From Thermoproteota archaeon (GTDB lineage: Archaea; Korarchaeota; Korarchaeia; B14-G2), in contig QMWA01000090.1 in NCBI GenBank assembly GCA_003661385.1, forward strand, positions 1 through 7,117: 7,117 nt of DNA, in the 5' to 3' direction. This document shows, one piece after another, positions 609 to 6,267 of the stretch. Every line of letters begins with the position of its first letter. Within the stretch, counting starts at the first letter, position 1. Made by a program: the position numbers and the translations under genes. Under the pieces are notes generated by a model. The model did not search any database. It had not been told where the DNA came from and saw only the letters and a program-made list of their open reading frames with translations.

Positions 609-1724
609 CTACTCGAACAACTCATACTCATAGGTAGTAAGCTTCCTGGCCCCTTCTTTCTCTATCACGTAGGTGTCCTCTACCTTGATGGTTCCTATGC
701 CTGGGATAGTGATTGGCGAGTGGACGGAGGCTAATACCATGCCGGTTTTCACTATGTATTGCCTGTGGGCTGCAATTATGGTCGTTATGGGGTCTTCTTC
801 CACCAGCAGTCCTACTCCGTGGGCGAAACCGAGGACTACGTTCTTTTCATATCCCTTACTTACGAGATAGCCTCTTATTGCCTCCTGGACATCGGCCAGT
901 TTAAACCCTGGCTTGAGGCTTCCCTCGGCTAAGGAATGGGCTTCTAGGAAGACCTTGAGGGCTTCTTTAGCCCTCGGCTTGGGTTCGCCCACGAACAGCG
1001 TCCTAGCCATGTCGGCATAGTAGCCGCCTTGATCCGCTGCCACTACTATGGTAACTGGGTAGCCCTCCTGGATGCGGGTGTCCGGCAAGGGCTCAGCGTG
1101 TATCCTCACCGAGGGGCCAGCGTTCACATAGACGAGGGGATGCCTGGCACCATTCCTCATGAGGATGTAATAGGCCTCGGCTGCCACCTCCAGTTCTGTG
1201 ACACCAGGCCTAAGGGCCTCGATGGCTGCTTCCATGCCCTTAGCACATACATTAGATGCCCTTTTAATGAGAGCTATCTCATGGGCATCCTTAATCATGC
1301 GAAGCCTCATTATGAGGCCGTGGACATCTCTTATCTCCACCTGCCTGTTCAGCTTCTTGAAGAGCTCGAAGAAGAGTACGTAGGCATCACGTTCTATGCT
1401 ATAATCGAAGCCCACTACCTTATAACCGCCCTCACGAATAGCATTACTCACAGCCCTCATGAGCTCCTCGGCCCTCCGCCATGTCCTCACGTCTTCTATG
1501 CCCGTTCTCTCCATCAATTCTGGCGCCTCGTCTTCAAAAGCGAAAGCTATGGGCTCACCCTCAGGCGGTATGAGGAGAGCTGGTCTAAGCCACTTCTCAC
1601 CAGTGAAGTAAGCGAAGGAAGAGAGAGTCCTTATCATGGAGGCTTCTATGCCTTCACTACGCATCAGCTCTTGGAAACGTGCCACCCTAGTCCTATACGG
1701 TTCCTGCAATCCCAACTCAATCAC
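609..1724 (-). CDS. M24 family (prolidase/aminopeptidase P/creatinase fold) protein with altered active site
   Basis: The 371-residue protein has the two-domain layout of prolidases: an N-terminal creatinase-like domain (about 1-135) and a C-terminal pita-bread domain (about 145-371). Family signatures seen are IHAEP (H209), YYADMART (D238, R241, T242), AHGVG (H302) and KVEDT (E349). Against the Pyrococcus prolidase pattern as I remember it, only three of the five metal ligands remain (D238, H302, E349). The first Asp appears to be V227, the Glu of the EP motif appears to be H335, and the His of the HE motif appears to be E309. Such a protein may bind metal differently or not at all, so Xaa-Pro dipeptidase activity should not be assumed. 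Creatinase shows that this fold can work without metals. The start is GTG at 1722-1724, with box A at 1748-1754 placing transcription start at the start codon. A TTG at codon 4, behind GGAGTGA, is an alternative. Its neighbours suggest no pathway. Confidence 0.85.
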   Translation of the reverse strand: MIELGLQEPYRTRVARFQELMRSEGIEASMIRTLSSFAYFTGEKWLRPALLIPPEGEPIAFAFEDEAPELMERTGIEDVRTWRRAEELMRAVSNAIREGGYKVVGFDYSIERDAYVLFFELFKKLNRQVEIRDVHGLIMRLRMIKDAHEIALIKRASNVCAKGMEAAIEALRPGVTELEVAAEAYYILMRNGARHPLVYVNAGPSVRIHAEPLPDTRIQEGYPVTIVVAADQGGYYADMARTLFVGEPKPRAKEALKVFLEAHSLAEGSLKPGFKLADVQEAIRGYLVSKGYEKNVVLGFAHGVGLLVEEDPITTIIAAHRQYIVKTGMVLASVHSPITIPGIGTIKVEDTYVIEKEGARKLTTYEYELFE

Positions 1725-1991
1725 TCCTTAACGGCGCTAAACAGGCATATAAAAGAGTTAACACCGTCATAAATCCTTGGTACATCCCTCAGCTCTCCAC
1801 GCCTCTTCATCAGGAGGGAATTGCTTACGACACTTACATCGCTTAATATCATGGAGGTAGCCGATAGTTCTGGCCTTAACGTCAGGCCTACAGCTGGCTG
1901 CCATAGGTGCCATGAGGATGTTACAGATGAATGCCTGGAGGAGGCTCTGCCTTACCTTGAAGGCTGGCGCATCATTTATTCCATGCGCGCT
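1721..1991 (-). pseudogene. Fossil of a copper-type P1B-ATPase (CopA-like) C-terminus
   Basis: Minus-strand reading from 1982 gives GINDAPAF, which is the conserved hinge motif of P-type ATPases (GDGINDAPA). It is followed at once by KVRQSLLQAFICNILMAPMAA, matching the start of the penultimate membrane helix of heavy-metal ATPases (KxxQNLxWAFxYN). In an intact enzyme several dozen residues separate these blocks, so an internal deletion is inferred. Near 1895 the frame shifts, and the next frame reads GLTLRPELSATSMILSDVSV and then VSNSLLMKR, which is the family's last helix (LRPELAAxAMxLSSVSVVxNSLxLKR). The copper-site Tyr of the YN pair is Cys here (ICN). The ATP-binding and phosphorylation domains are missing. 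The second frame runs on through an unrelated tail to a TGA at 1721-1723 that overlaps the GTG of the M24 gene. This is a dead remnant that presumably once exported Cu+. Confidence 0.8.
1748..1754 (-). promoter_or_regulatory. Box A (TATA) of the M24 gene
   Basis: The minus strand reads TTTTATA here, centred about 27 nt before the GTG start at 1724. That spacing places the predicted transcription start at or next to the start codon, so the mRNA would be leaderless. The element lies inside the 3' tail of the P-type ATPase fossil. Confidence 0.5.
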
Positions 1992-5537: not shown

Positions 5538-5566
5538 TGACTAAAGTCATACCTTAGTATGACTTT
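5535..5566. promoter_or_regulatory. Predicted vapBC operator with three alternating half-sites
   Basis: Half-site GTATGACT occurs at 5535-5542, inverted as AGTCATAC at 5545-5552, and direct again at 5557-5564. The last two form a perfect palindrome with 10-bp arms, AAAGTCATAC (5543-5552) and GTATGACTTT (5557-5566), with a 4-bp spacer. The first two form an 8-bp-arm palindrome with a 2-bp spacer. The direct copies are 22 bp apart, about two helical turns, so dimers would bind the same DNA face. The array spans from the box A to beyond the start codon, the expected position for autorepression by VapB or VapBC. Binding by VapB is inferred, not shown. Confidence 0.7.
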
Positions 5567-5822
5567 GAAGACTGTGGTCTCCAGGAAGGGGCAAGTTGTC
5601 ATACCTAAGGAGCTTAGGGAAAAGCTAGGTCTGAGAATGGGGACAGTTCTGAGGGTGTGGGTTGAAGGGAAGAGGGTCATCCTTGAGCCCGTATCTGAGC
5701 CCCCAGAGGAGATCTTTGTCAAGGCTGGCCCAGAAGTCACCGATAGAGTGCTGAGGGAGGCCAAGGCCCTCGGAGACAAGGCTGAAAAGCTCCTCCGAGA
5801 TCTAGGTGTACAGGATGGTTAA
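5559..5822 (+). CDS. vapB: AbrB-family antitoxin VapB
   Basis: This 87-residue protein opens with a SpoVT-AbrB swapped-hairpin DNA-binding domain, VVSRKGQVVIPKELREKLGL (about residues 6-25), continuing through a strand that ends VILEP near 43. The remaining 44 residues are acidic and helical and fit the toxin-wrapping tail of VapB antitoxins. It should neutralise the PIN RNase encoded immediately downstream and repress its own promoter as a VapBC complex. The coding region overlaps vapC by 8 bases, a typical arrangement for translational coupling. The ATG start at 5559 lies inside the third operator half-site and 26 nt from the box A, implying a leaderless mRNA. Length and domain order are normal for the family and nothing suggests decay. 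Confidence 0.9.
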   Translation: MTLKTVVSRKGQVVIPKELREKLGLRMGTVLRVWVEGKRVILEPVSEPPEEIFVKAGPEVTDRVLREAKALGDKAEKLLRDLGVQDG

Positions 5823-6267
5823 GGCAGCCATAGACACAGGTGTGGTAATTGAGTACATAGATGAGCTAGGGCTGCTTCACCAGCAGGCAAGCATTCTGTT
5901 CTCAGCAGCACTAGCAGGCATGATAGAGCTGATAATCCCCCACCCCATCCTAGCTGAGACATACTACGTCGCAGCTAGGGTCTACAGCAAGCTGGGCTAT
6001 GAGAACCCAGGGGATAGGGCGTCAAAGCTCGTCGAATGGCTCTACAGGCTCCCGACGGTCACAGTGGAAGAGGGCTTAGACCTTGCCCTGGAAGCAGGCA
6101 GGATCAAACACACTTACAAGATAGCCCTAACAGACTGCTATGTCCTAGCAGCATCAAAGATACACATGTGCACAGCAGTCTTCAGAAAGCCTGAGAAGGA
6201 GATGCTCCCCAACATAGACAGCTTGACAAGAGAGTTCAAAATACTCTTTCTGGAATCTTACAAATAG
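5815..6267 (+). CDS. vapC: PIN-domain toxin VapC (ribonuclease)
   Basis: The 150-residue protein has the PIN fold signature: AIDTGVVIEYI (D7) at the N-terminus, HPILAETYYVA (E48) in the middle, and ALTDCYVLAAS (D107) in the C-terminal half. These three acids match the Mg2+/Mn2+-binding triad of VapC RNases, which cut tRNA or other RNAs to stop translation. The usual fourth acid in the later strand is not an Asp here. The segment AVFRKPEKEM offers E127 or E129 instead, as in many archaeal VapCs. ATG 5815-5817 is preferred over GTG 5806 because AGGTG at 5804-5808 sits 6 nt before it. The gene overlaps vapB by 8 bases and should be co-transcribed from the vapB promoter. The triad looks intact, so the toxin is probably active. 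Confidence 0.9.
   Translation: MVKAAIDTGVVIEYIDELGLLHQQASILFSAALAGMIELIIPHPILAETYYVAARVYSKLGYENPGDRASKLVEWLYRLPTVTVEEGLDLALEAGRIKHTYKIALTDCYVLAASKIHMCTAVFRKPEKEMLPNIDSLTREFKILFLESYK

Follow-up and report, generated by a model that had tools for sequence, protein, structure and literature searches.

P1B-type ATPases are assigned to groups by short motifs in their transmembrane helices, CPC in TM6 defining P1B-1 and CPH defining P1B-3, and the P1B-1 group further shows YN(X)4P in TM7 and MXXSS in TM8 (PMC5552934). Structures are available for the copper-exporting P-type ATPase A (PDB 3j08 and 3j09) and for a copper efflux ATPase (PDB 3rfu), whose C-termini follow the order GINDAPA - K(I/V)(K/R)Q..L..A(F)..N(X)4P..A - RPE(L/F)....M.(L)S.VSVV.NSLL..R. 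A second point of comparison is offered by the intergenic pseudogene remnants of prokaryotes that Pseudofinder was built to detect (PMC9336565), that is, degraded genes that sit where no gene is predicted and can be recovered by six-frame search.

Here we compare these systems with a locus in the window, by which we mean the whole stretch of 7,117 nucleotides that was analysed. It belongs to an uncultured, probably archaeal genome, 91% complete and available as a draft of 206 contigs. On the minus strand (1982-1799) lies what is almost certainly a pseudogene, namely the final fragment, interrupted twice, of a gene for a P1B-1 (CopA-type, Cu+-exporting) P-type ATPase. It shares with 3j08, 3j09 and 3rfu the C-terminal order given above, but lacks TM1-TM6, the N-domain, DKTGT and 44 residues after GINDAPA, and it reads CN in place of YN and MXXSD in place of MXXSS. 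From the remnants addressed by Pseudofinder it does not differ in principle; it is an ordinary prokaryotic pseudogene that implies no new mechanism.

Anatomy and identity of the copper-pump remnant

The original prediction had read on this strand GINDAPA, a penultimate-helix motif and, one frame over, a last-helix motif, with a deletion behind GINDAPA and a frame shift near 1895, and all of these features are present where it placed them; its interpretation, too, is essentially supported. The remnant opens with the P-domain hinge motif GINDAPAF (1982-1959, frame -3), directly followed in the same frame by TM7, KVRQSLLQAFICNILMAPMAA (1958-1896). At 1895 the reading changes from frame -3 to frame -1, in which the TM7-TM8 loop and TM8, (A)VGLTLRPELSATSMILSDVSVVSNSLLMKRR, occupy 1894-1799 (VGLTLRPELSATSMILSDVSVVSNSLLMKRR itself 1891-1799). 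The open frame continues through a tail, GELRDVPRIYD...VKE (minus strand, 1798-1721), whose TGA end adjoins the start of pepQ; its first residues may be the copA C-terminus, and the remainder of the tail gave no match. Frame-aware profile alignment shows about 44 profile columns (residues) to be absent between GINDAPA and TM7. Apart from a possible leftover at the junction (below), nothing of copA remains upstream of GINDAPA, and a stop codon lies shortly before the motif: TM1-TM6 including CPC, the N-domain and DKTGT are all missing, and the CPC-bearing TM6 part is absent from both the window and the genome. What survives amounts to about 60 residues split over two frames. Most of the reading frame is gone, the frame is changed and the site holds no intact copy, as in a pseudogene. 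No part of the remnant is able to pump copper, and the pump function is lost.

The predicted order of a P1B-ATPase was examined with a frame-aware profile built from 29 C-termini of P1B ATPases, with frame changes and long gaps permitted. Across the whole window this alignment scores 70.9 at the remnant, collinear with the CopA C-terminus, and 19-21 at the next best place, while 150 dinucleotide-preserving shuffles of the window, taken on both strands, give a mean of 18.6 (sd 1.6) and a maximum of 24.7. The window has a single instance of the GINDAPA codon pattern in any spelling, and 200 shuffles produced none. The tblastn search that the prediction had proposed was run on the raw DNA of the window with 30 archaeal CopA/CopB sequences (P1B ATPases from relatives) as queries. 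Most CPC-type queries produced the outcome named there as support, two collinear matches, one in frame -3 and one in frame -1, whose summed E-values range from 2e-7 to 1e-4 (2e-7 for L012, 2e-6 for L016, 2e-5 for both L025 and L004).

Identity as a CopA-like copper ATPase agrees with the best matches, TIGR01511 and the copper-exporting structures 3j08, 3j09 and 3rfu. A joined peptide that we assembled from the two frames, and whose E-values are not the main proof, aligns to columns 486-542 of the 542 in TIGR01511, up to the last column (E 3e-4), and finds by phmmer the copper ATPase structures 3j08, 7r0g and 3rfu (E 0.001-0.014; 3j08 and 7r0g best); a Pfam search with it gave no match. DNA words of the remnant stretch match the corresponding place in the intact copA of several relatives, and the full stretch was found by DNA word search only in the present genome (G000). 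A match of the frame -3 read-through to HDIG (E 0.0027) was set aside, as most of it falls beyond 1895, where this frame is the wrong one.

To place the remnant among pump types, the ATPases of relatives were sorted by their TM6 motif. In tblastn it is nearer to the CPC-type (P1B-1) CopA than to the CPH-type (P1B-3) pumps carried by most class relatives, for which the best E is only 0.005. Its TM7 keeps N(X)4P (N-ILMA-P), with C for the Y of YN, and its TM8 reads MILSD, with D for the second S of MXXSS, which departs from the P1B-1 motif. The change from SS to SD is also present in some intact CPH-type relatives and is, therefore, no sign of decay on its own; with MILSD in place of MXXSS, the remnant is nevertheless not a working P1B-1 pump. 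Two motifs of the translocation site are thus altered, and what survives of them is no longer canonical. The P1B-3 CopB motifs GYN(X)4P and MSXST are replaced by ICN(X)4P and MILSD, and the alignment to CPH-type relatives is weak. The remnant is specifically P1B-1 (CPC-type)-like, and its overall similarity to CPC-type sequences supports such descent.

Junction, neighbours and genome

The remnant adjoins a C-terminally truncated, antitoxin-like gene of the UPF0175 family (PF03683) of 48 aa on the minus strand (2138-1992; Pfam E 5e-9). This gene matches only columns 18-53 of the 75 in the profile, less than a full-length domain, and ends at the TAG at 1994-1992; its DNA similarity to relatives (L065/L066) stops at about 2008-2012. 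The original prediction mentioned neither this truncated gene (2138 to about 2007) nor the possible M24 remnant at 299-141 described below. A second, apparently full-length UPF0175 is found at G000:C13:4264-4446.

The junction stretch (minus strand, 2009-1983) reads ELQEA*SAH and is matched weakly in tblastn (E 0.6-0.95). Because relatives have ELQ(E/N).G..VAMVGDGINDAPA in their CopA and this locus has ELQEA*SAHGINDAPA, the deletion join between UPF0175 and copA is probably near 2009, and ELQEA*SAH is possibly a leftover of the CopA sequence ELQE(A)G..VAMVGDGINDAPA. A single large deletion around ELQEA would have brought the 5' part of the UPF0175 gene, a neighbour of copA, up against the copA 3' end, to be followed by smaller losses and by substitutions. 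An origin of GINDAPA from UPF0175, whose frame it continues past the stop, was considered and rejected: UPF0175 relatives have no GINDAPA there, and the motif is collinear with CopA.

Directly downstream of the remnant lies an intact PepQ-like M24 peptidase gene (minus strand, 1724-609; start at 1724 or within a few codons downstream of it). Further along the same strand, the piece ADEYYTEAERTFFTRKPPLEARGAFEAMMEARAAVLDSLQEG (299-141) resembles M24 proteins, among them the PepQ encoded in this window (tblastn E between 1e-4 and 3e-4; Pfam M24 E 0.0026), and judging by these matches it may be a second gene remnant, of an M24 peptidase. The plus strand carries an apparently intact pair of an AbrB-type antitoxin (5559-5822) and a PIN-domain toxin (5806-6267).

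An intact copA, which the original prediction suggested looking for in the same genome, was not found. The whole assembly (91% complete) contains no detectable P1B ATPase and no other copA part, HMA domains above threshold are lacking, and a single P-type ATPase turned up, a protein of 900 aa at C96 that bears neither a CPC nor a CPH motif. P1B copper export appears to have been lost from the genome or never to have become fixed in it; the missing part might still harbour an intact copA. Among 61 relatives, 57 have a match to TIGR01511 and 33 pass its cut-off. No copA stands beside the homologous pepQ in G022, G024, G033 and G055, two of which reach a contig end nearby (nearest pepQ genes at 45-47% identity), and the genomes compared include no other of the same family. 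For these two reasons copA may have been acquired or moved to the locus before it decayed, and the claim that the ancestor of the locus had an exporter stands as likely rather than proven.

Parallel decay and rival explanations

Inspection of relatives' sites did uncover one intact and one broken copA in syntenic positions. In G009 (genus g4, same class) a CPC-type copA of 793 aa is intact, and at the syntenic place in G007, of the same genus (L127, G007:C28:26500-37000, against L159, G009:C7), it is broken by deletions and several frame changes. What G007 retains of it is an HMA piece from the N-terminal end, middle pieces that are shifted and a C-terminal piece with 92% identity. The broken gene resembles the remnant in being CPC-type, in its deletions and frame changes and in a C-terminal end that is best preserved. 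Its decay is younger, however: the HMA piece is still there, as is the whole GDG..TM7-TM8 stretch. G007 has, in addition, a CPH-type pump that is intact, and just downstream of its broken copA it carries some 1 kb of extra DNA.

Three class relatives carry C-terminal pieces of CopA as open frames of 141-233 aa; pieces at G015 C40 and G020 C117 end at contig ends and were left out of the remnant count. One open frame of 233 aa, L126 (G020:C29, about 8246-8659), joins a ThiF/MoeB-like N-terminal piece to a CopA C-terminus and is a remnant fusion or an assembly join, and in G025 the CopA piece is joined to unrelated residues. The pieces of G007, G025 and G020 show that copA has decayed to a C-terminal remnant in other members of the class too. 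It is hardly probable that such pieces (P-domain end plus TM7-TM8; G000, G007, G020, G025) survive preferentially in the class, be it through a residual or new role or as a mark of recurrent loss of Cu+ export.

Could the remnant still be in use, yielding a small protein in the form of either the 43-aa TM8 peptide (1852-1721) or the 48-aa UPF0175 product? The 43-aa frame has an ATG and ends adjoining pepQ, and the open pieces in the three class relatives might be read in the same way. Yet its start falls inside the former TM8, a Pfam search gave no match and no homologue has the same architecture, while among the relatives' pieces that of G007 belongs to a visibly broken gene and those of G020 and G025 are fused to a ThiF-like fragment and to unrelated residues; we regard continued use as very improbable. 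Extremely improbable is an artefact in which a chimeric contig or base errors mimic the remnant of a normal gene. A draft of 206 contigs invites the thought, and the single frame change at 1895 could be a base error of such a fragmented assembly, but large deletions are unlikely to arise in this way. The assembly has no further copA part, 44 codons are lost in frame between the pieces, and the 5' truncation lies well inside the contig with intact genes on both sides. Chance similarity of short membrane-helix peptides, which the weak scores of each piece alone in HMM libraries (E 0.018 for the TM8 piece) might suggest, has a vanishingly small probability and is refuted by order, direction, spacing and GINDAPA, which jointly lie far above all 150 shuffles.

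Read as the end of a decayed copA, the locus illustrates how gene-dense genomes conceal short remnants, and it changes no mechanism. It records that a genome now apparently without any P1B ATPase has lost a Cu+ exporter and, with the parallel but more recent loss seen in G007 of the same class, contributes modestly to the picture of copper handling in this lineage.
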